DNA of 64,000 nt, taken from contig NZ_CP045202.1 of assembly GCF_016864195.1 (NCBI RefSeq), positions 1,767,001-1,831,000 of the forward strand. The letters are read 5' to 3'. Made by a program: the position numbers and the translations under genes. Within the stretch, counting starts at the first letter, position 1; each line of letters opens with the position of its first letter. The notes beneath the pieces were generated by a model, which saw nothing but the letters and a program-made list of their open reading frames with translations, made no database searches and was not told the DNA's origin. The stretch is from Dechloromonas sp. TW-R-39-2 (lineage in GTDB: Bacteria > Pseudomonadota > Gammaproteobacteria > Burkholderiales > Rhodocyclaceae). Below, piece by piece: positions 39,268 through 51,434 of the stretch.

Positions 39268-40608
39268 TCAGTCGTGCAGGGTACCGGTCAGCGGGGGCGT
39301 TTCCGGTGCAGCAAAGGCGCTGAGCAAGGTGCTTAGTTTGGCTTCCGTTTCAGCCAGTTCCTGCCGTGGATCGGAACCGGCAACAATGCCTGCGCCGGCA
39401 TGGAATTCGGCGATGCAGCCGTTGATCTGCGCCGAGCGCAGGGCGACCGAAAATTCACCCTCGCCATGGCTATCGAGCAAGCCGAAAGCACCGCTGTACC
39501 AGCTTGGTCGCCGCTCGCCATGCTGCTTCAGCCAGTGCCGGGCAGCCGGACCGGGAAAGCCGCCAACCGCCGGTGTCGGGTGCAGAGCACGGACCAGGTC
39601 GAAGAGTGTGGTTTGTTCCTTGATGCGGGCAGAAATCCGGCTGCGCAAATGACGAAGATGGCCGGCTGGATGCTCGGTCGGTGTACCGGCCTGGGGGCGG
39701 GTCTGGCAGAGCGGTGCCAGGGCGTCGATGATGGCATCGACGACCAGCGATTGCTCGTGCCGGTTTTTGGGATCGCTCAATGAGGGCGACTCGGCCCATG
39801 CCGTACCGGCCAGCGCATCAGCTTCAACCGCGCCGTTCTGTAGCCGGAGCAGGCGCTCCGGGCTGGCGCCGAGAAAGGTTTGTTCGCTCTGGCCGTGGGC
39901 GTAGATCAGGCTGTCAGGTTGGCGGTCGATCAGGTTGCGCAGAATGGTTGCGGCCGAAAAAGGCGCGCTTGCCTGAATACTGCGCTGGCGACTGAGAACC
40001 AACTTGTCCAGCGTGCCTTTTTCAATTTCCCGCAAGGCGGCGCGGACTCTGGCCATCCACGCCTGTTCGGCCAGTGTTTCCGGGCGTTCCGGCAGTCGGC
40101 GTACGGGGCGGGCGATTGCCGGCTGGGCGATCAGCTCCAGCCATGTTGCTCGTGCCTGATCGCGGCGAGCCGCGGGAATCGTCAGGGTGACGGAGTTTAG
40201 CCCGTTGATCGAGGTGAGCAGGATGGATGGAATGGCGAGCAGCGCATTGGGCAATCCATCATGTGTTTCCGGATCGAAGGCGAAGCCGGCAAAGGCGTAG
40301 GCGCTCCCTTCGTGCCGCCATTCCTGGCACAGCCCCTGAAAGGCATTGTCGAGAGCGGCAAAGCGATTGCTGCCGGCTGTGCCGAGATGCAGTGCATGGC
40401 CAATGCCGAGCCGGAATTCGCCCTGTTGCGGACGGGCCCGATACCAGAATGGTGCATTTTCGGGGAGCAGGCTCAGCCAGTCGGCGCTTGTGCCAGCCAG
40501 TGGCCGGCTGATGCTGATTGGCGCCGAGGCCGGCGCGCCTGTCGCCAGCGCTTCGAGTTGCGCTGCCCAGCTTTGATCGTTGATCAGTTTGTGCAGAAGT
40601 GACTTCAT
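39268..40608 (-). CDS. menF: Isochorismate synthase MenF
   Basis: A 446-residue chorismate-utilising enzyme that makes isochorismate for menaquinone. The C-terminal catalytic half shows the family signatures KGTLDKLVLSRQRSI, FLGASPERLLRL, ALAGTAWA, LFDLVRALHPTPAVGGFPG and SGAFGLLDSHGEGEFSVALRSAQI. Single-subunit length and the AGTA/PTPAVGG forms fit isochorismate synthase better than anthranilate synthase. EntC-like siderophore synthesis is excluded by context: the upstream gene is menE, overlapping by 4 bp (ATGA at 40605-40608). Confidence 0.93.
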   Translation of the reverse strand: MKSLLHKLINDQSWAAQLEALATGAPASAPISISRPLAGTSADWLSLLPENAPFWYRARPQQGEFRLGIGHALHLGTAGSNRFAALDNAFQGLCQEWRHEGSAYAFAGFAFDPETHDGLPNALLAIPSILLTSINGLNSVTLTIPAARRDQARATWLELIAQPAIARPVRRLPERPETLAEQAWMARVRAALREIEKGTLDKLVLSRQRSIQASAPFSAATILRNLIDRQPDSLIYAHGQSEQTFLGASPERLLRLQNGAVEADALAGTAWAESPSLSDPKNRHEQSLVVDAIIDALAPLCQTRPQAGTPTEHPAGHLRHLRSRISARIKEQTTLFDLVRALHPTPAVGGFPGPAARHWLKQHGERRPSWYSGAFGLLDSHGEGEFSVALRSAQINGCIAEFHAGAGIVAGSDPRQELAETEAKLSTLLSAFAAPETPPLTGTLHD

Positions 40609-41897
40609 GACGCGCTTTCGCCGGCCAGGCGCCGCAATTCTGCCCTGACCAGTTTTCCGGTCGGGTTACGTGGCAATCGGTCGAGAAAAACCAGTTTGCG
40701 TGGTACGGCTGCCGAGGGCAGGTGCTGGCGGGCATGTCGGGTAATCTGTTCGGCACTGGCCGTGCCAACAATCAGTGCGACGACCAGGTCGCCCCATACC
40801 GGGTCGGGCTGGCCGGTGACGGCAATGTCGATGATGCCGGGGCAAGCGGCAAGGCAGGCTTCGACATCGAGCGGGTGAATGTTGCGTCCGCCGCTGATCA
40901 GCATGTCATCGGCCCGGCCGGTCACGGTCAGACAGCCCGCCGCATCGATCCGGCCCAGGTCGCCGGTTGTCAGCCAGCCGTCGGCATCGATCCCGCTGCC
41001 ATCGAGGTAGCCGAGCATGAGTTGCTGGCCGCGAACCCGGATCCGGCCATTCGTGCTGATGGCAATTTCGCTGCCGGTCAATGCTTTGCCAACCAGACCT
41101 TGTTGCCAGGGGCCGTCGGCCGGATGGTACGTCGCAATCTGGGCCGATGTTTCACTCATGCCGTAGCTGGGGGAGACCGGCCAGCCGGCACCGAGGGCTT
41201 TTTCGTACAGCGCAGGGGTGAGTGCCGCGCCGCCGACCAGAACGTGGCGCAGGCTGGCGGGGGCGGCGATCTGCTTGTCGAGCAATTGGGCCAGCATGGC
41301 CGGAACCAGAGATATATGTGAAACCGGGTATTTTTCGAGGTCGACCGCAATATTCTCGATGCTAAAGCCTTCATGCAGCAGCACGCTGGCGCCGGCCAGG
41401 GCGCAGCGCCACAGGATCGACTGGCCGCCGATGTGGTAAAGCGGCAGGCAGTTGAGCCAGATGTCACCCGGATGGAGCGGCAAGTGCTGATTGGATGCCC
41501 GGGCGGCCGCGGCCATGCCTGTGCTGCCGAGCAATACGGCACGGGCTTCGCCCTCGCTGCCGCTGGTCGAAATGATCAATGCTGTCTCGCCAGGAAGCTC
41601 GATGTTTTGCAGTGCAGCCCGGTTTTTCTCGATACCGGCCGGATTGTTGCGGTCGACGGGCCAGAAAGGGCGTTTTTCGATGGCACAGCGATACGCTTGT
41701 CGTGCCAGCGCCAGGCTGCTGCCTGAGGCGATCAGTGGTGTGTTGGGTGCGCCTGTTGTGCTGCTTTTTTCTGCTTGGGCGTCGGCCAGTAGTCCGGCGT
41801 AGCTCCAGGATTGGCCGGCAGCGATCAGGGCTGGTGCAGCCTGTCCATGGCGGGCGTGAATGTAGAGGCTGTCGGCGAGTGAAATGGCATCCTTCAT
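40605..41897 (-). CDS. menE: o-Succinylbenzoate-CoA ligase MenE
   Basis: A 430-residue acyl-CoA synthetase of the ANL family. It has IISTSGSEGEARAVLLGS as a P-loop-like A3 motif, SYGMSETSAQIAT, DGWLTTGDLGRID (A7), GRADDMLISGGRNIHPLDVE (A8) and the C-terminal catalytic lysine in PRNPTGKLVRAEL (A10). Short length and coupling to menF (4-bp overlap) identify it as the menaquinone ligase rather than a general acyl-CoA ligase. It is first in the menE-menF unit. A 13/14 copy of the recurrent 14-bp word lies in its coding sequence at 41644-41657. Confidence 0.92.
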   Translation of the reverse strand: MKDAISLADSLYIHARHGQAAPALIAAGQSWSYAGLLADAQAEKSSTTGAPNTPLIASGSSLALARQAYRCAIEKRPFWPVDRNNPAGIEKNRAALQNIELPGETALIISTSGSEGEARAVLLGSTGMAAAARASNQHLPLHPGDIWLNCLPLYHIGGQSILWRCALAGASVLLHEGFSIENIAVDLEKYPVSHISLVPAMLAQLLDKQIAAPASLRHVLVGGAALTPALYEKALGAGWPVSPSYGMSETSAQIATYHPADGPWQQGLVGKALTGSEIAISTNGRIRVRGQQLMLGYLDGSGIDADGWLTTGDLGRIDAAGCLTVTGRADDMLISGGRNIHPLDVEACLAACPGIIDIAVTGQPDPVWGDLVVALIVGTASAEQITRHARQHLPSAAVPRKLVFLDRLPRNPTGKLVRAELRRLAGESAS

Positions 41898-42036
41898 GAG
41901 CGAACCATTATACGCAGTGAGATGGTTTTTTCGGGATAACGCAGATCAAGGAAAAGATCCTTCCATTGCCTGTATTTGGCTGATTTCACCGAGCATCACA
42001 CAGATATCAGAAATAAGTTTGAAAAGGATATCTTGA

Positions 42037-42050
42037 CCTTGCTTGCAAGG
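42037..42050. promoter_or_regulatory. Inverted repeat upstream of the TonB-receptor operon
   Basis: CCTTGCTTGCAAGG, a perfect 6-bp inverted repeat with a 2-nt centre, 54 bp before ATG 42104 and just downstream of TTGACC (42034-42039). It is a possible operator for the receptor-kinase operon. The remainder of the 206-bp gap shows nothing I can assign. Confidence 0.35.
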
Positions 42051-42103
42051 CTTAATGTGGGGAAAATCAGTACATCAATAACGATAAATTTCGGCAAACG
42101 AAA

Positions 42104-44146
42104 ATGCGCTGCAAAAAAGTGCTTTCGCTTATGCTGCTGGCCTGGGGGGGCGATGTACTGGCTAGCAATGCAGTGGATGAGATGGGTCTTGAGGAGCTGA
42201 CCAAGGCCGATATCACCTCGGTTTCCCGCAAGAGCCAGAGTCTGTCCGATGTGCCGGCCGCAGCGTTCGTGATTTCGGCCGAAGACATCCGGCGCTCCGG
42301 TGCGCAGGCCTTGCCCGATGTGCTGCGGATGGTGCCCGGGATCGAGGTGGCGCAGATCGATAGCGCACGCTATGCGGTGACCGCACGCGGCTTCAATGGC
42401 CGCTTTGCCAATAAACTGCAGGTTCTGATCGATGGTCGCAGTGTTTATCACCCGATTTTCTCCGGGGTGATGTGGGAGGCTGACCTGATCGCGCTGGAAG
42501 ATATCGAGCGCGTCGAGGTGATTCGCGGACCGGGAGCTGCGATGTGGGGCGTCAATGCCGTCAATGGCGTGATCAACATCATCAGTCGTCACACCCGCCA
42601 TCAGGGCGGGGGAGAGGCCGTGGCCAGCCTTGGAACGCAGGGTAAGGCCGGCCTTTATGCCCGTTACGGTGGACAGCTGGATGAGTACACTCGCTGGAAA
42701 ATGTCGGTTCAGGGACGTCACGCCGAGCCGTCGCAACTTTACGCCTCAGGCGGTGAGAACGTTGATCGCCTGAATAACGGCGTGCTTGATTTTCGTCTGG
42801 ACAAGGATCTGGGTGCCGGCCACGACCTGACTCTCTGGGCCAATGCCGTGCGCTCCTCGCTTGGCGATCAGTGGCGTCTGAATCCGCAGTATTCGGGAGG
42901 CGGCAGTTTTCTCGGGATGAACAACTATCTGATCCAGCAAAGCTATACGAGCCAAAGCTTGATGGGGCGTTATCGCTGGTTGTCCGATAGTGGTGTCGAG
43001 TCATCGCTGCAAATGGCCATGACCGATTCGGGCATCGAGATCAGCGAGTATTTCAAGGAAGAACGCACAACCTACGATCTTGATTACCAGGCGCGCTACG
43101 CATTTGCCGGGCACGACCTGCTGTGGGGCGGGAGCCACCGGACAACGTCGGATTCGGTGACTTCTGCAACCAGTGTGGTGTCGATGGCCAATCCGGACTA
43201 TACGGATCGCAGCACCGGGGTGTTCGTTCATGACGACTGGACGCTGATCCGCGATCGTCTCGTTCTGGGGGCCGGGGCGCGCTGGGATCATCCGATGCGT
43301 GGCGGCAATACTTTTTCACCCAGCGCCAGCCTGATGTGGACGCCGGGTCGCAGCGACAGCGTGTGGTTGAAATACGCCCGGGCACCCAGAGTGCCGGCGA
43401 GAGCCGAACGCGATGTCACCATCTTTGCCGGCGTGGTTCGTCCATCGGCCGAATCCATGGGCTTGCCGGTCTTTCTTCGGACGCGTCCTTCTTCGCGCAC
43501 GCTGAAACCGGAGGAAGTGGAAGGTTTCGAACTCGGTTACCGCAAGCAACTGACAAGCAACTTCAGTACGGATCTTGCGGTCTACCGCTATCGCTACAAG
43601 AATTTGATTTCCGGGCTGCCAGTAAGCCAGGATTTCAGCATGTTGCCCTTGAACATCATCCAGAATGTCGAGACATACAATTGCATGGCAGCCTGGAGCA
43701 ATGGTGCAGAATTCAGTGCCGACTGGCTGGTGTCTGCTGCTTGGCGCTTGCAGCTTTCCTATGCCTGGACACGGCTTGAATTTGATCGCTCGGCTAATCC
43801 AACCTTGAATGCAACGGCGGAAAATGATGAAAAAAGCGGACCGCGTCATTTCGGCGCTTTGCGCTCGCAATGGAACATCTCGCCAATCCAGCAGTTCGAT
43901 GCCTGGATTCGTGGCTCGGCCGGTTTTTACCGGGCCAATGCGCCTTATACCGAGCTGGTTCGCGTGCCGGGATACATGACGCTGGACCTGCGCTATGGCC
44001 GCAAGTTCGGCAAGGACGTCGAGCTTGCCCTGAGTGGCCGCAATTTGCTGGGGCCGCGTCGTATCGAGTTCATTTCGGATTACATCCCGAGTCCGCAGAG
44101 TGAAGTCACGCCTTCCCTGTTGTTGTCCGTGCGCTGGAAATTCTGA
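42104..44146 (+). CDS. TonB-dependent outer-membrane receptor heading a signalling operon
   Basis: A 680-residue outer-membrane receptor. A signal peptide is visible (VLSLMLLAWGGDVLA). The plug domain (about 45-160) contains AAAFVISAEDIRRSGAQALPDVLRMVPGIEV, ARGFNGRFANKLQVLIDGRSVY and IERVEVIRGPGAAMWGVNAVNGVINI. A beta-barrel follows and ends in aromatic LSVRWKF, the usual outer-membrane assembly signal. The ligand is unknown; no siderophore or B12 genes are near. It is followed after 6 bp by a YfiR-like periplasmic protein and then a kinase and c-di-GMP regulator, so it may signal or supply a ligand to that system (inference). Confidence 0.92.
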   Translation: MRCKKVLSLMLLAWGGDVLASNAVDEMGLEELTKADITSVSRKSQSLSDVPAAAFVISAEDIRRSGAQALPDVLRMVPGIEVAQIDSARYAVTARGFNGRFANKLQVLIDGRSVYHPIFSGVMWEADLIALEDIERVEVIRGPGAAMWGVNAVNGVINIISRHTRHQGGGEAVASLGTQGKAGLYARYGGQLDEYTRWKMSVQGRHAEPSQLYASGGENVDRLNNGVLDFRLDKDLGAGHDLTLWANAVRSSLGDQWRLNPQYSGGGSFLGMNNYLIQQSYTSQSLMGRYRWLSDSGVESSLQMAMTDSGIEISEYFKEERTTYDLDYQARYAFAGHDLLWGGSHRTTSDSVTSATSVVSMANPDYTDRSTGVFVHDDWTLIRDRLVLGAGARWDHPMRGGNTFSPSASLMWTPGRSDSVWLKYARAPRVPARAERDVTIFAGVVRPSAESMGLPVFLRTRPSSRTLKPEEVEGFELGYRKQLTSNFSTDLAVYRYRYKNLISGLPVSQDFSMLPLNIIQNVETYNCMAAWSNGAEFSADWLVSAAWRLQLSYAWTRLEFDRSANPTLNATAENDEKSGPRHFGALRSQWNISPIQQFDAWIRGSAGFYRANAPYTELVRVPGYMTLDLRYGRKFGKDVELALSGRNLLGPRRIEFISDYIPSPQSEVTPSLLLSVRWKF

Positions 44147-44152
44147 CTGATC

Positions 44153-44695
44153 ATGCGCTCCCGGCCTCTTCTTTCGACACTTCGCAGCCTTGCCGCCGTG
44201 CTTTTGCTCAGCCTGGCCGGCTCGTCGAGCTTTGGCGAAGTGGCGTCCGAAGGGCAGTTGAAGGCCGCCTACCTAGTTAATTTCCTGAAATATGTCGAGT
44301 GGCCGGCGTCGCGGTCGACGGCGACGATCTGCCTGTTTGGCCGTGATAGTCTGGGACCGTATCTGGCGTCTTACGAGGGGCGGCAGATTGTCGGCAGGGA
44401 ATTGCGCATTCGTAAAGTGACCAGTCCTGACCAATTGGCCGATTGTCAGTTGCTGTTCGTGCCAGATACCGAGGAGTCGCGTTTCGCTGCAGTACTGCGC
44501 TGGTCCGACAAGCAGGCGATCCTGACGGTCAGCGACGCCGAAATTTTTACCCGTGATGGTGGTGTAATCGCTTTGGTGCGATCGGAGGGCAGGTTGCAAT
44601 TTGACATTAATACCGATGCACTGGGGCGCGCCGGACTGAAGGCCAGTTCTCAGATGCTGCGTCTGGCCCGCCAGGTGAGCGGGGGCGGCCGATGA
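44153..44695 (+). CDS. YfiR-like periplasmic protein (DUF4154)
   Basis: A 180-residue secreted protein of the YfiR/DUF4154 family. The signal peptide is [16 protein letters not shown] (cleavage near residue 28). The mature protein begins with the family pattern [20 protein letters not shown] and contains [20 protein letters not shown] and CQLLFVP, then [39 protein letters not shown]. In Pseudomonas YfiR restrains the diguanylate cyclase YfiN from the periplasm. Here the partner is more likely the membrane kinase that overlaps it by 4 bp (ATGA), since no YfiN-type cyclase is in the operon (inference). Confidence 0.9.
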
Positions 44696-47418
44696 TCCAC
44701 AAGCTTCCCATCCGCCGCCGTCTGGCTGCGATTATCGCCACTTCGGTCGGCGTCGGGCTGGCCCTGACATTTCTGCTCTTCGCGCTGCGTCAGGTCGACC
44801 ACCGCCGCGATGCCAAACTGACCGAATTGCGCTCGATGGCTGAAGTCATCGCTTTCAATGCCTCGGCTGTGGTCGAGTTTCAGGATATCGGTGGGGCTGA
44901 GCGCCTGTTTTCATCGCTGGTTCCGCATCGCGAAATTGTGGCTGCAACGATGCGCAGCGTGGATAGTGATTTCAGCTACCGCTATCGCCAGCTTGCCGTT
45001 CCCGTTCCGGAACAGGCACGCCAAGCCGACCAGGCGCATCTCGATGTGGCGAGTTACATCAATTTTTCGAATGTCACCGTCGTTGTTCCAATTCGTACCG
45101 TCGAAGGTGTCATTGGTTCCGTATCACTGACGGCCAGCCTCGATAGCGTCTGGCACGATACGCGGCTCGACTTTCTCTGGTTCATGGCCGGTTCGCTGGT
45201 GGCCTTCATTTTTGCCCTGCTGATTGCCCGGCGCATGCAGGAATCCCTGCTCAATGCCCTGGGGGCGTTGACCGAGACGGCCCGGGATGTGGCGGAGTCG
45301 AAAAACTTTCTGCAGCGCGCCACCAAGTACTCCGATGATGAAATAGGCCAACTGGCCGATGCCTTCAACACCATGCTGGTTGAAATTGCCGACCGGGACA
45401 CCGAGCTTGTCCGTCATCGGGCGCATCTGGAAGAGGTGGTTGAAAAGCGGACGCAGGAGTTACGGCAGGCCAAGGAAGTTGCTGAGGAGGCAAATCGTGC
45501 CAAGAGTGCTTTTCTGGCCAATATGAGCCATGAAATCCGGACGCCGATGAATGGCATTATCGGTGTGGCGGATTTGCTGGCAGCCAGCACGTTGACCGCG
45601 AAACAGCAGTATCAGCTGACTACCTTGCGCAGTTCGGCCGATACGCTGCTTTACCTGCTGAATGATATTCTCGATTTTTCACGCATCGAGGCTGGCGGCT
45701 TGCAACTGGAGCGCTTCCCATTTGATGTACGCGAAACGATAGAACAGGTCATTTCGGTTTTCGCCCCGGCCGCCCGCAAGAAAGGCCTCGATCTCTGGTT
45801 CGATATCGACCCGGATGTGCCCGGCTACATTTTTGGCGACAAATATCGCCTGGGTCAGGTTCTGACCAATCTGGTCAACAACGCGGTCAAATTCACCGAA
45901 GTCGGCAGCATTCGTCTTTCGTGCCGGGTCAAGGTGCTTGGCCGAGGCTCAGAGCGTCTGTTGCTGACCGTTCGCGACTCCGGCATTGGCGTCAACAATA
46001 CGGCACTGGAAGATATTTTTTCGCCTTTCCGTCAGGCCGACAACAGCATGAGCCGCCGCTTCGGTGGCAGTGGGCTGGGCCTGGCGATCGTGCGCGACCT
46101 GATCGGCTTGATGGGCGGTGAAATCCACGCCAGCAGCAAGCCGGGCGAGGGGTCGGTGTTCTCGATCGATTTGCCGCTGGAGGTTGCCCAGGCGGTACGC
46201 AGCCTGCCCGAATGGCTGGCGCCTCTGGCCGGGCGTTCGGTGGTTCTGGCCGCAACACCTGGCGATCGCGCCAATTACTGGCTGACGCTATTGAACTGGG
46301 GGGGAATCAAGGCCCGGTTGGCGCATGAACCCGGGCAGCTTGAAGGGCTGCTCGGTGAATTGCATCCCGATGCCGTGCTGCTTGAGGATACGGCGGCCTT
46401 CGAAGTCTTGCTCGATTCGGATGGGGCATATTTTGCCGGCATCCCCGTGTTGGTCATCCACAATATTGAAACCGACAAGGGAGATGCCACGCCGTTGCCG
46501 GCATGGGTGGCCGGGGATGTTCGCAAACCGTTCAGTGACCTCGACTTGTTCTGCGAGCTGGCCGAAATCTGGGGTGTCCTGGCTGAAGCGCCGCAGCAGG
46601 AGGAAGAGCAGGGGATTCTGCAGTTCGATGCCAAGGTACTGATGGTCGAGGATAACGATACCAACCGGATCATTCTCGAACAGATACTGGTGACGCTGGG
46701 GTGTAGCGTCAAACTGGCAGTGAATGGCCAGCTGGCAATCGAAGCCCTGAAAGCGGAGCGTTTCGATCTGGTGCTGATGGACGTCCAGATGCCGGTGATG
46801 GACGGTCTGCAGGCCACCCGTATCATCCGCGAAATGGAACGCAGCAATCAGCAGACCCGGCAACTGATCATTGCACTGACTGCCAATGCGCTGGCGGGCG
46901 ATCGGGAAATGTGTCTGCAAGCGGGGATGGACGACTATGTCACCAAGCCGGTGACCATCGACCGGGTTGCTTCGGCCGTTGCACGCTGGCTGCCTTCTGT
47001 CCGGCGCACGCCAGCGCTGCAGGCAGAAAATTCGGGCGGCGCCGCCGAGAGTGTTCCGCTGATCGATCTGAATGAATTACGCAGCAGCCTGGGGGCCGAG
47101 TCAGAACGCGTCATTCCGGTTGTTCTGGCGTCTTATCTGAGGGAAGGTGAGGCGCATATCAAGGTCTTGAACAACGTTGACCGTGACTTTGATCTCGAAC
47201 GGATCACCCGGATTGTCCATAACCTCAAAAGCTCCAGTGCTGCACTCGGCATCATGGGTTTTTCCGGTTTGTGCAAGGAAGCCGAGCTGGCCGCACGGAG
47301 TGGCGATCAGGATAGGACCAAGGCCTTTATCGAGCGGGTTGTGCACGACTTTGCCGTCGTCAAGGCAGCCGTCGGCAAAATCCTGTCGCCGGTCGACGAT
47401 GTGAAGGAAAAATCATGA
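44692..47418 (+). CDS. CHASE8-type hybrid histidine kinase with receiver and Hpt domains
   Basis: A 908-residue unorthodox kinase. TM1 is at about 10-30. A periplasmic CHASE8-like domain follows at about 33-150 ([20 protein letters not shown]), then TM2 ([19 protein letters not shown]), HAMP and a coiled linker. HisKA has its His in [15 protein letters not shown] near 279, and HATPase carries [16 protein letters not shown] and [14 protein letters not shown] receiver-like section at about 505-625 lacks the canonical acidic pocket. A true receiver lies at about 645-765 ([24 protein letters not shown]). The C-terminal Hpt domain has His near 842 ([13 protein letters not shown]). It overlaps both neighbours by 4 bp. 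The Hpt probably phosphorylates the REC domain of the next protein. Confidence 0.93.
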
Positions 47419-49532
47419 ACTCACCGGGTAAACAGCGCATTCTGGTGGTCGACGATGAGCCGGTGATGCGAACCATCACCCAGACCGTTCTTGCCCAGCA
47501 TGAATTCGACGTGATCGTTGCCGAATCGGCCGAAGAAGCCTTCGAACTGATCGGCCGGGGAGAATTGCCGGATTTGCTGCTGCTTGACGTGCTGATGCCG
47601 GGCATGAACGGCTTTGACGCCTGCCGCGCCCTGCGCCGCCAGCATCATCTCGAACATCTGCCGATCATCATGCTGACCGCGCTCGACGATCAGGCCTCGA
47701 TCGATGAGGCTTATCGCTGCGGTGCCACCGACTTCATCACCAAACCCCTGAACATGCCCTTGCTGCCTCACCGCGTGCGCTATCTGCTGCGTTCGGCCCA
47801 GGCGTTCAAGGAGTTGATGGATAGTCAGGAAAACCTGATCAATACCCAGCAAATCGCCCATCTGGGCAACTGGATGATGGATGAGCATGGCGCGGTCGTG
47901 AATGCCTCGCGCCAGTATCTCGACATCATCGGTGCGAGCATGCTGCCCGTGCCGAAGGAGCGCCTGCTCGCCCGTGTCCATCGCGAAGACCGGGCGGCAC
48001 TGGTCCGTGGCCGGACGGAGCTGAAATCTGGCCGTTCATATCGGCTGGATTACCGTTTGCGCGGTCTACACGATGAAAGCACATGGTTTCATGTGCATGA
48101 AATGGGTTTTCCGCGCTTTGGCGATGTCGGCGAATATCTCGGCGCCAGCGGTTTCATCCAGGACATTACCCAGCGCGTCGAACAGGAAGAGAAAATCCGC
48201 CAGCTGGCCTGGCATGACAGCCTGACCGGCCTGTACAACCGGAATCGTCTGCTTGAGTTGCTTGATCGTGACCTGAACAATGCCGAGACGCCGTATGTGC
48301 TGGCCCTGCTGTTCATCCATTTTGATCACCTGCGCCAGATCGCCATGGTGGCTGGGCAGGATATCGCGGATACCGTCATCAAGGTGCAGGCCAGCCGGCT
48401 GAGCAGCCTGCTCGATGCATCAACTGAAGATCCCGGCAAAGCGATGCTCGGAGCTGCTGCGCTGGCACGTTACGACGAGCAGTCGTTGATTGTCGCCTTG
48501 CCCGGCCAGCAGGATCACGAGGTGATCCGCCGTCTGGCCGAGGCCATCTGCGAGACGCTGGCACGCCCGGTTTTCCTCGGTGCTGAAGAGTTCTTGAGCA
48601 AGCCATTCATCGGGATTTCGTGCTATCCGGAAGATGCGACAGATTCGCAGGAACTGATGCGGCGTGCGACGCTGGTCGCCTTGCGGGCCGCGCGCTCGGA
48701 AGGTGCCACGGTTAATTTCTTTGATCCGGAACATGACCGCGAGGCGATGCAACGCATGGTCATGGAGCGCAGTTTGCGTGTCGCGCTGGAGCAGGGTAAC
48801 GAACTGTTGCCATTCCTGCAGCCCAAGATCTCGGCCCGGACCGGCCAGGTGCTGGGGGCGGAAGTCCTGCTGCGCTGGCAACATCCGCTCAAAGGGCTGG
48901 TCTCCCCGGCACAGTTCATTCCACTGGCCGAGGAAACCGGCCTTATCCACCCGATCAGCGAATGGCTGATCAGTCATGTCTGCGAAATGCTGGCACGCTG
49001 GCAGCAAAAAAATCCGAATCTGGGCTGCATCAGCATCAACCTTTCAGCCCACAGCTTCTTTGATCGCACCCTGGTCCAGTTTGTCGATGAAGTGTTGTAC
49101 CGAACTGGCGTGGCGCCTTCGCAACTGATTGTTGAATTGACCGAAACCGTGCTGATGCAGGACACCGATGCAGCCAATCGCGTGATCGCCAGCTTGCGTC
49201 AGCGAGGTATCCGGATTTCGCTGGACGATTTTGGGACCGGTTTTTCCTCGTTGGGCTATTTGAACCGCTTCGATATCGATGAAATCAAGATCGACCGTTC
49301 CTTCGTCCTCGATCTGGAGGCTGATCGGACGGCGCAGGCGCTGGTGCAGGCGATTATCAGTCTGGGCCATGCGCTCGGGCTGGAGGTCGTCGCCGAAGGT
49401 GTCGAAACCGAGGCGCAGGCGAGCTTGCTGCGGCAGATGGGCTGCGATATTTTCCAGGGTTTCCTGTTTGCCCGCCCGATGCCTGCCGGTGATTTTCCGG
49501 CCTTTGTCGAGGCCCGTCAGGGACTTGGCTGA
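47415..49532 (+). CDS. Response regulator REC-PAS-GGDEF(degenerate)-EAL phosphodiesterase
   Basis: A 705-residue c-di-GMP response regulator and likely output of the operon. The REC domain (about 5-125) has [20 protein letters not shown] and the lysine in FITKPLN. A PAS domain with a [11 protein letters not shown] linker follows. The GGDEF domain is degenerate (RYDEQS where GGDEF is expected), so it is probably not a cyclase. The EAL domain reads EVL but keeps the other catalytic motifs ([49 protein letters not shown]), so it is probably an active phosphodiesterase. It overlaps the kinase gene by 4 bp (ATGA). Confidence 0.93.
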
Positions 49533-49588: not shown

Positions 49589-50557
49589 CTAGCGTCCCGG
49601 CCAGCTTGTCGCGGGCTGGAATCCCAGTCCATCGAACATTGGTAAATCAAGCTTGCCACGATGAATCGCCGGGCCGACGCCGGTGTCGCTGGCAAACCAG
49701 TCGGCGGTGGCCAGGCCATGGATCGAATCCGGTGTCAGTGCCGCAGCCAGATGAGCTACCGCCAGCAAGCCGCAGGCACTTTCCAGGCTGCTGGTGAAAA
49801 TGCATTCGACACCCGCAGCGTGAGCCTGCAGTACCGTTTCGATACAGGCCAGCAGGCCGCCGTGGCGGGGGGGCTTGATGATCAGGCGCTGGACGGCGGG
49901 GGCGGCCATGAACTGCCGGTCAATCAGATGGAAGGATTCATCGATGGCGATCGGGAAACGACTGGTCGCCTGAAGTTCGCCCAGCATCGCCAGTGTCGGC
50001 ATGCGCAGAGGTTCTTCCAGACCTTCGATCGGCAATTCGGCGCAGGCGGCAATGAAGTGCCGCGCCTCGGCCATCGACCAGGCGCCGTTGGCATCCAGGC
50101 GCAACTTCAGGCCATCCGGCAAGTCTTGGCAGCGTTGTTGCAAGGCTGCGATCTCGTCATCGAGCGAGGCGTTGCCGACTTTGATCTTGATGACCTGGAA
50201 GCCAGCATCGGCGGCATCCTTCAGTGCGGCTGGCGGGGTATGCAAAATTGCCCCGAGTACCGCGTTGACCGCAACGTGCTGGATAGCCGGCCGGCCACTC
50301 AACCAGGCGTTCAGCGCCAGGTTGGCGCGCTGGGCGGCGAGGTCGAGCTGGGCGCATTCTTCGGCAAAGTCGCTGGCGGCTTGCGCTGTGATGCCGAACT
50401 CAGGCCATGGCGCACAATCGCCCCAGCCGGTTCGGCCATCTGCCGTCTTCAGGCGCAACAGGCGCCCATCGCGGTGCTGGAAAACGCCCCGGCTGGTGTG
50501 CCAGGGCTGCTTGAGCGGCAGGCTGTACGGCAGCCAGTCGGCCGCAAGCGGTCTCAC
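49589..50557 (-). CDS. menC: o-Succinylbenzoate synthase MenC
   Basis: A 322-residue enolase-superfamily dehydratase making o-succinylbenzoate for menaquinone. Visible catalytic elements: the KIKVG lysine pair, metal ligand Asp in [10 protein letters not shown], Glu in IEGLEEPL, acid in IAIDESFH and the second-side lysine in [11 protein letters not shown], then [10 protein letters not shown]. It begins with GTG 50557, overlapping the menB stop (GTGA), so it is translated with menB. Dipeptide epimerases share the fold, but the menB context decides the call. Confidence 0.93.
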
Positions 50558-51381
50558 GGGCGTTTGCGGAATTTGCCGAAATCGGGCGGGCGACGTTCAA
50601 GCCAGGCATTGCGGCCTTCTTGGCCTTCCTCACTCATGTAGAACAGCCCGGTGGCGTTGCCGGCCAGTTCCTGGATGCCGGCCAGGCCGTCGGTGTCGGC
50701 GTTGAAGCCGGCCTTGATCATGCGCAGCGCCATCGGTGAAAGTTGCAGCATCTGGCGGCACCAGTCCACCGTTTCGGCTTCGAGCTGGTCGAGCGGTACG
50801 ACGGCGTTGACCAGCCCCCAGTCGAGCGCCGTGGCGGCATCATATTGACGGCAGAGCAGCCAGATTTCCTTGGCCCGCTTGAGGCCGATGGTCCGGGCCA
50901 TCAGCCCGGCGCCCAGGCCGGCATCGAAGCTGCCGACACGCGGACCGGTCTGGCCGAAACGGGCGTTTTCGGCGGCAATCGACAGGTCGCAGACGAGGTG
51001 CAGGACATGGCCGCCACCAATGGCAAAGCCGGCAACCATCGCAACCACCGGTTTCGGACAGCGGCGAATTTGCATCTGCAGGTCGAGCACGTTGAGATGC
51101 GGCGTGCCGCCTTCGTCGATATAGCCTTCATCGCCGCGCACTTTCTGGTCGCCGCCCGAACAGAAGGCTTCGCCGCCGGCGCCCGTCAGGATGATCGCAC
51201 CGATGCTGTTGTCGTGATGTGCCCGGTGAAAGGCATCGATCAGCTGGCTGACCGTTTCGGGACGGAAGGCATTGCGTTTTTCCGGGCGATTGATCGTGAT
51301 CCGGGCGATACCTTCGGCGGTGTCGTAAAGGATGTCGGAATAAGTCTGGGCGCTTTGCCAGTCGGGGGTGCGGTTCGGCAT
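50554..51381 (-). CDS. menB: 1,4-dihydroxy-2-naphthoyl-CoA synthase MenB
   Basis: A 275-residue crotonase-family enzyme closing the naphthoate ring. Motifs: [19 protein letters not shown], the [12 protein letters not shown] stretch characteristic of Men[40 protein letters not shown], and the C-terminal [17 protein letters not shown] signature. ATG 51381 fits the family length; the upstream frame is open to 51405. It lies 75 bp downstream of ilvN with a long hairpin in the gap, and overlaps menC by 4 bp. Confidence 0.96.
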
Positions 51382-51398
51382 GGTTTGTCGAAAGAGAT

Positions 51399-51434
51399 GG
51401 GACAAGCGGCAAGTATAGCCTTGCCGCTTGTCCC
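51399..51434 (-). terminator. Long perfect hairpin between ilvN and menB
   Basis: A 15-bp perfect stem (GGGACAAGCGGCAAG/CTTGCCGCTTGTCCC) with a TATAGC loop. On the minus strand it is followed by ATCTCTTTC, a weak T-tract. It may end ilvBN transcripts partly, or mark an RNA processing point before menB. Confidence 0.6.

Follow-up and report, generated by a model that had tools for sequence, protein, structure and literature searches.

What feeds YfiR signalling systems that have no YfiB lipoprotein is a question left open in 2012, and it is raised by a four-gene operon of Dechloromonas sp. TW-R-39-2. The operon lies in a stretch of 64,000 nucleotides (contig NZ_CP045202.1, positions 1,767,001 to 1,831,000 of the forward strand), which is called the window below. 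An earlier note, made from these letters alone, proposed that the operon passes a signal from an outer-membrane receptor through a YfiR-like protein and an unorthodox kinase to a response regulator that lowers cyclic di-GMP (c-di-GMP). The genes are located in the window as follows:

42104-44146, + strand: TonB-dependent receptor gene, open reading frame of 680 amino acids; the proposed input
44153-44695, + strand: gene of the YfiR-like periplasmic protein, open reading frame of 180 amino acids
44692-47418, + strand: unorthodox hybrid kinase gene, open reading frame of 908 amino acids with CHASE8 sensor, HAMP, HisKA, HATPase, receiver and Hpt domains
47415-49532, + strand: response regulator gene, open reading frame of 705 amino acids with receiver, PAS-like, degenerate GGDEF and EAL domains; predicted c-di-GMP phosphodiesterase

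The answer offered here is that a TonB-dependent receptor stands in the place of YfiB. The best explanation overall seems to be a receptor-coupled version of the YfiR/CHASE8 module acting by the mechanism proposed below, and it is regarded as probable; that the four genes form one signalling unit is highly probable.

The tight spacing described in the earlier note was found again on the letters: 6 bp separate the receptor gene from yfiR, and ATGA overlaps at 44692 and 47415 join yfiR to the kinase gene and the kinase gene to the regulator gene. The Pfam search agreed with the domains claimed, except that CHASE8 came just under its cut-off when the kinase was scanned as a single protein and PAS_3 of the regulator stayed below (18.1 bits against 25.6). 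The receptor includes a Plug (79.7 bits) and a TonB-dependent barrel (119.4 bits), the YfiR-like protein is a DUF4154 protein (144.9 bits, cut-off 24.9), the kinase possesses HAMP, HisKA, HATPase, receiver and Hpt domains, and the regulator consists of receiver, GGDEF and EAL. The yfiR gene of the window is the sole DUF4154 match in the 3.46-Mb genome, and no OmpA-family lipoprotein (YfiB) was found near it. The nearest named relatives of the locus belong to Dechloromonas and other Azonexaceae or Rhodocyclaceae.

The earlier note had left it to a neighbourhood survey to show whether the receptor and yfiR genes are conserved with the kinase, and conservation is what was found, far beyond the genome of the window. 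Within the family to which the window's genome belongs, 101 of 199 genomes yielded DUF4154, with 145 hits in all, and the surroundings of 143 hits, the window included, were examined; G166:C82, at a contig edge, and the weak G140:C10 were left out. Loci were counted by domain position, a run being taken on the same strand under a 900-base rule, which hides some partners: L198 and other short loci, for example, enter the count as lacking a receptor though one lies 2 kb on. A TonB-dependent receptor occurs in the run of 112 of the 143 yfiR genes and directly upstream of 103. Grouped by the output of the CHASE8 partner, receptors are present in the run for 77 of 85 kinases, all 21 GGDEF-EAL proteins, only 4 of 21 proteins with GGDEF alone and both proteins of other type; where no CHASE8 was found, they accompany 8 of 14 yfiR genes. 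A YfiB-like OmpA lipoprotein (four examples were confirmed by Pfam) lies near 12 of the 143, all of them GGDEF-only and none with a receptor in the run. Thus, 112 loci have the receptor, 12 the lipoprotein, none both and 19 neither. Chance adjacency was considered and rejected, the expected share of receptors directly upstream being an estimated 0.1-0.2% against the 103/143 observed; Plug genes numbered 216 in 26 genomes of about 94 Mb, or about one per 435 kb. Six loci (L165-L170) with weak DUF4154 hits and another kinase have neither receptor nor CHASE8 in the run, and in five of the six a receptor is placed one gene further up. In L165-L169 the weak DUF4154 genes stand with a kinase, a receiver-GGDEF regulator and a nearby receptor; in L165 and L168 yfiR is preceded by a CrtC/lipocalin-like protein with a carotenoid-synthesis domain.

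The linkage extends beyond the family. DUF4154 was found in 94 of 398 Pseudomonadota genomes, and among the short loci of this survey (best-scoring hits, 1.5-kb flanks) a receptor was present in 23 of 29. A named set of 80 loci with 82 yfiR genes, which overlaps the family survey and takes in Geobacter, Nitrospirota, Acidobacteria, Limisphaerales and metagenome-assembled genomes of Thermodesulfobacteriota, contains a receptor with 76 yfiR genes (73 directly upstream) and none with 6; no YfiB-like lipoprotein was found in these 80 loci. The link was also followed from the receptor side, by coordinates alone. The best NCBIfam match of the window receptor is the TOL_0244 family (459.6 bits, under the cut-off of 645), and receptors of this type were defined by 280 bits or more, a value set after the scores had been seen, with at most three candidates scored per genome. 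The 398 Pseudomonadota genomes yielded 65 such receptors, 62 of them in genomes with DUF4154 and 52 within 10 kb of DUF4154 on the same strand, including 35 directly before it. Among the 65, a further 11, which share the family code f39, are placed 2-3 kb after DUF4154, as if behind the kinase; the link has thus outlasted at least one rearrangement, in one lineage. Among 32 weaker receptors, 2 came within 10 kb of DUF4154 and none immediately preceded it.

Several arrangements speak for paired genes. In Cognatazoarcus (L036, identical to L268) and in a Nitrotoga (L309), one kinase and one regulator are preceded by two tandem copies of the receptor-yfiR pair; several loci have two receptors ahead of one yfiR; and in a metagenome-assembled genome of Pseudomonadales (L300, 4763-9805) kinase and regulator are fused into a protein of 1680 amino acids running from CHASE8 to EAL and including receiver, PAS, GGDEF and EAL. 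It might be argued that the receptor serves nutrient uptake, is unrelated to the signalling genes or at most regulated together with them, and is kept in the operon by history. Operons often mix genes, and the upstream receptor is missing at the site in D. denitrificans (L243), where the contig ends in the kinase, and in D. hortensis (L246), which has another receptor behind the regulator. Set against this are a linkage that crosses phyla in more than one gene order, the exclusion of YfiB, the duplication of the receptor together with yfiR and the N-terminal segment of the receptor described below, and a purely historical association is considered very improbable.

Some of the related loci differ in their receptors. 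Seven Dechloromonas-like loci (L236, L237, L238, L240, L241, L244 and L246) possess a second, distinct receptor behind the regulator, which the window does not have, and L241, from Dechloromonas agitata, otherwise shares the window's arrangement of genes; in L245, L250 and L251 a receptor of the second type directly follows yfiR, and no kinase is seen in the run. In L056 and L252 the upstream receptor is divided into two reading frames (248 and 436 amino acids), due to a broken gene or a sequence error. On a FastTree tree of YfiR (209 rows, many weak branches) the output type needs at least 13 changes. The state of cyclase only and no receptor needs 2 changes and that of kinase and no receptor 17, the latter probably representing scattered losses, contig ends or short flanks.

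The receptor has a feature of its own ahead of the plug:

42185..42232, + strand: N-terminal segment GLEELTKADITSVSRK after the signal peptide and ahead of the plug; candidate for a contact with YfiR or for an altered TonB box

A segment of this LSLEEL...SVSRK type is found in 93 of 125 non-redundant YfiR-linked receptors, as compared with 1 of 45 control receptors (Fisher p 8e-19); linked receptors with fewer than 30 residues ahead of the plug were dropped from the count. The controls were drawn from 36 loci of best Plug hits, mostly one per genome, and 10 loci completing the genome of the window, and the window's own receptor (L206) was removed. Their flanks were too short to reveal yfiR, which went unflagged even at L206, so their positions were compared by eye with those of DUF4154, and 0 of 45 were adjacent. 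No STN domain was found in the window receptor among Pfam hits to E 0.01. The nearest solved receptors by sequence, the colicin I receptor and BtuB, are not informative on the ligand. Compared with the nearest loci, the plug is 82% and the barrel 46% identical (medians of 15): the outside of the receptor varies and the inside is kept.

Over 96 loci, the distances of plug and YfiR are correlated at 0.57, and at 0.48 when the kinase is held constant (0.39-0.59 in subsamples; the top of 200 permutations was 0.157), whereas the correlation of plug and kinase given YfiR is 0.06-0.07. In 47 dereplicated loci the corresponding partial values are 0.25 and 0.01. The divergence of the receptor follows YfiR and not the kinase.

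The connector itself is of the YfiR type. A profile comparison matched it to YfiR chains at E 1.5e-27, its AlphaFold model (mean pLDDT 89.9) has YfiR structures as all of its 15 best solved matches, and Foldseek aligned it to 4yn9/4yn7 with E 1.2e-9 and a TM value of 0.79 by target. The best NCBIfam match is TOL_0243 (117 bits, under the cut-off of 125). Cys60 and Cys98 correspond to the first disulfide pair of YfiR; the second pair, common in the GGDEF group, is absent. Malone et al. (PMC3375315) mapped YfiN binding on YfiR to a patch around Phe162, and one residue of the window protein is aligned to it:

44600..44602, + strand: Phe150 of the YfiR-like protein, aligned to Phe162 of the patch by which P. 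aeruginosa YfiR is proposed to bind YfiN

The patch residue is Phe in 87% of kinase-linked YfiRs and in 96% and 67% of the other two output groups. The YfiB side looks different. According to PMC4887326, the YfiB-binding pocket of YfiR includes Pro178. This position, mapped along the alignment, is Pro in 71% of the GGDEF group, while Ser or Ala occupies it in 92% of kinase-linked and in all GGDEF-EAL-linked YfiRs, as expected if this face meets a partner other than YfiB.

These results bear on how the receptor is heard. The receptor might only import its ligand, which YfiR, as a half-size relative of substrate-binding proteins, would bind and report to the kinase, so that no contact of receptor and YfiR is needed. 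The YfiR model also matches substrate-binding proteins, including the Trp-bound 3lft (E 3.1e-5), and P. aeruginosa YfiR weakly binds vitamin B6 and Trp at the YfiB site, by the binding data of PMC4887326; the affinities given there are in the ten-millimolar range, which tells against such a role. In favour of it is also a locus in the same genome (L346, 1647-6745) that has in a row a phosphonate-binding-type periplasmic protein, a Cache/CHASE8-like hybrid kinase with no Phe at the YfiR site and a TonB-dependent receptor, a similar layout with another connector. The specific N-terminal segment and the exclusion of YfiB fit a contact at the same face of YfiR better, and sensing after transport seems unlikely, though it is the most serious of the alternatives. 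Signalling by contact of the receptor with YfiR is judged fairly probable.

The kinase retains a sensor of the YfiN type. The model of its residues 1-240 (mean pLDDT 92.4) places a PAS/Cache-like sensor between two long helices, the first from residue 7 to 56 and the second leading to HAMP. The best match of the model is a WalK-YycH model, and CitA and LapD-type domains also match; WalK is a kinase with extracytoplasmic partners. The motif AVVEF includes the residue of interest:

44878..44880, + strand: Phe63 of the kinase sensor (AVVEF), counterpart of YfiN Phe70, the proposed YfiR-binding residue

In the model Phe63 stands just past the helix 58-62, probably at the end of the sensor far from the membrane. 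Malone et al. (PMC3375315), in their mapping of the YfiN side, assigned YfiR binding to the motif AAVVF with an exposed Phe70. The equivalent position is Phe in 99% of 159 kinase sensors, in 24/24 GGDEF-EAL partners and in 21/21 GGDEF partners, and it is one of two invariant columns among 54 diverse proteins. As a control, DUF4154 was within the fetched flanks of 26 of 30 CHASE8 loci. In the five CHASE8 or CHASE8-like sensors that have no YfiR (the remaining four and one from the genome of the window, compared by eye), Phe occurs only in L328, and N, R, R and Q take its place in the others. The last of the five reaches 21.9 bits, which is below the cut-off, and matches sCache_3_2 better, so that it counts as no more than CHASE8-like.

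The earlier note had assumed that the YfiR-like protein serves as a periplasmic connector in place of the usual YfiR-YfiN pairing. Support was obtained for the connector role; the pairing has not been replaced, since the CHASE8 sensor is kept and the cyclase output is exchanged for a kinase. The replaced part is the outer-membrane partner, YfiB giving way to the TonB-dependent receptor.

On the output side, all of the 90 aligned relatives that have Hpt retain the phosphorylation sites His280, Asp697 and His843, and many relatives have a further receiver ahead of the last one. The degenerate GGDEF reported for the regulator is present as RYDEQS (residues 352-357), the receiver has Asp58, and all EAL catalytic motifs looked for are in place, by which the protein is predicted to be a c-di-GMP phosphodiesterase. 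A comparison of 64 distinct regulators showed the receiver Asp in every one and an intact EAL in 61, one of the remaining three being altered and two truncated; GGDEF has degenerated in 44. Relative to the nearest loci, most of them from Dechloromonas, the EAL domain of the window regulator is 70% and the GGDEF domain 47% identical (medians of 9). Because EAL is kept and GGDEF is degenerate in most regulators, the output of the relay appears to lean towards phosphodiesterase. The opposite sign has to be weighed: phosphorylation might inhibit EAL, or the regulator might serve as a c-di-GMP sensor, and the ligand would then raise c-di-GMP or have another effect. The sign of the kinase and the receiver is not readable from sequence, and the one-component CHASE8-GGDEF-EAL partners keep an intact GGDEF in 22 of 22 cases, by which the module may serve both directions. 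The retention of EAL, the decay of GGDEF and the unequal identities of the two domains make this quite unlikely. The narrower claim that the net effect of the ligand is less c-di-GMP is given an even chance.

The coupling of this kinase type to an EAL regulator, also proposed in the earlier note, is borne out by the L300 fusion and is not general. Just 34 of the 85 kinase loci have a GGDEF-EAL regulator in the run, so that in many cases the kinase must exert its action elsewhere; the other 51 runs contain 5 receiver-GGDEF proteins, 6 other receivers and, in 40 cases, no regulator, some being cut by contig ends.

The mechanism proposed can be described as follows. A ligand would be bound, and probably imported with TonB energy, by the receptor. 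This event would alter the hold of the YfiR-like protein on the CHASE8 sensor of the kinase: either YfiR is drawn to the periplasmic face of the receptor (the LSLEEL segment and the plug), as by YfiB in YfiBNR, or the receptor lets YfiR go. Conserved contact residues suggest that the region of Phe63 in CHASE8 is bound by YfiR in the way that Phe70 of YfiN is. Its release would switch the kinase, and phosphate could pass from His280 to Asp697, to His843 and to Asp58 of the regulator, sites that are all present and conserved. EAL, the only catalytic domain of the regulator with intact motifs, would cleave c-di-GMP, so that cells meeting the ligand would tend to become less sticky and more motile.

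Several observations weigh against this interpretation, in addition to the 34 of 85 runs just mentioned. When the window kinase was scanned as a single protein, its CHASE8 domain reached 26.1 bits and missed the cut-off of 27, though a six-frame search gave 30.4 bits. The distances of YfiR and CHASE8 are weakly correlated (0.25, and 0.12 given the kinase), for which the short and fast-changing nature of CHASE8 probably provides the context, and the correlation of plug and YfiR could arise from neighbouring genes travelling together. The LSLEEL-type pattern is absent from 32 of 125 linked receptors, many of which look like near variants, and its single control match (L351, 1312-3327; L357) is a same-genome receptor beside which yfiR and the kinase were not seen; as the linked receptors are related to each other, the segment is a clade signature and no proof of contact. 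In the family survey a receptor is missing from the run of 31 of 143 yfiR genes, and 8 of these 31 have a CHASE8 kinase. No CHASE8 partner appears in the run of seven of the 73 named loci whose receptor lies directly upstream, and three of the seven (L245, L250 and L251) read receptor, yfiR, receptor. Finally, GGDEF is intact in 20 of 64 regulators.

The surroundings of the operon in the window include a menaquinone cluster on the opposite strand, which the operon splits, with menF- and menE-like genes before it (39268-41897) and menC- and menB-like genes after it (49589-51405); the menE-like gene beside the operon scores below its cut-off. The genes menE and menF are also located upstream of yfiR in D. 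denitrificans (L243) and D. hortensis (L246). An Rfam search of the window at gathering scores gave no known RNA or riboswitch, and a consensus check of 41850-42200 gave no sigma-70-like promoter.

If the proposed explanation is true, many Gram-negative lineages connect nutrient receptors of the outer membrane straight to c-di-GMP. Whether a cell settles or moves could then be tested directly with single receptor ligands, and a sequence mark would be available for spotting signalling receptors among transporters. More tentatively, with a little less than an even chance, YfiBNR may be a side branch, the common form of YfiR signalling being driven by TonB-dependent receptors. These would form a general class of transmembrane signalling separate from the sigma-factor type, capturing or releasing YfiR by an LSLEEL-type N-terminus and plug and thereby setting c-di-GMP by way of interchangeable outputs (cyclase, cyclase-phosphodiesterase or phosphorelay).

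Part of this picture was outlined before. Malone et al. (2012, PMC3375315), in the in silico part of their study, reported that distant YfiR-YfiN operons almost all have no yfiB, that the output in many of them is GGDEF-EAL, Hpt or a sensor kinase, the contact residues being retained, and that a Thauera system comprises two YfiR proteins and one hybrid kinase. The core is the same as in the window, YfiR with a CHASE8 kinase and yfiB mostly missing, and the kinase swap was thus already known in silico. TonB is not mentioned in the text of that paper, and the section on yfiB-less operons leaves their outer-membrane partner open. The pair of receptor and YfiR-like protein had already been noticed by curators, as the NCBIfam names TOL_0244 and TOL_0243 are adjacent tags, the former from Thalassolituus oleivorans; the window proteins score under both cut-offs. 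In PMC6304351, TOL_0244 is reported to be sevenfold up on C28 alkane as compared with Tween 80 and is likened to the alkane-sensing OmpS; it is treated there as an alkane-induced receptor, with TOL_0243 and c-di-GMP unmentioned in the sections concerned. No link between YfiR and a TonB receptor was found in the one open-access library searched (subscription papers were outside the scope), and excerpts of PMC9611778, PMC8959810, PMC5311112 and PMC8228696 hold both YfiR and TonB-dependent, unconnected. What appears to be new is that YfiR usually has a TonB-dependent receptor for its partner in the outer membrane, one that excludes YfiB and bears an N-terminal mark of its own.

The nearest known system is YfiBNR (AwsXRO, TpbB) of Pseudomonas aeruginosa, of which HmsCDE is a relative. 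Both it and the operon combine a repressor of the YfiR fold with a CHASE8/PAS sensor that bears the YfiR-binding Phe and with a third partner in the outer membrane, and both have a c-di-GMP output, here predicted. They differ in that the YfiB lipoprotein is exchanged for a TonB-dependent receptor and the GGDEF cyclase for a kinase phosphorelay to an EAL regulator, the CHASE8 protein of the window bearing HisKA, HATPase, receiver and Hpt in place of GGDEF; in YfiR, the second disulfide pair is absent and the YfiB-pocket Pro178 is Ser or Ala in 92% of kinase-linked proteins. In FecA-FecR-FecI, the signal of a TonB-dependent receptor passes via a periplasmic contact to an inner-membrane protein. 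A likeness to this route, from receptor through periplasmic contact to inner-membrane protein, is proposed here for the operon, which differs in having no STN domain, anti-sigma factor or sigma factor among its four genes by Pfam and would use a YfiR-like protein and a phosphorelay instead.

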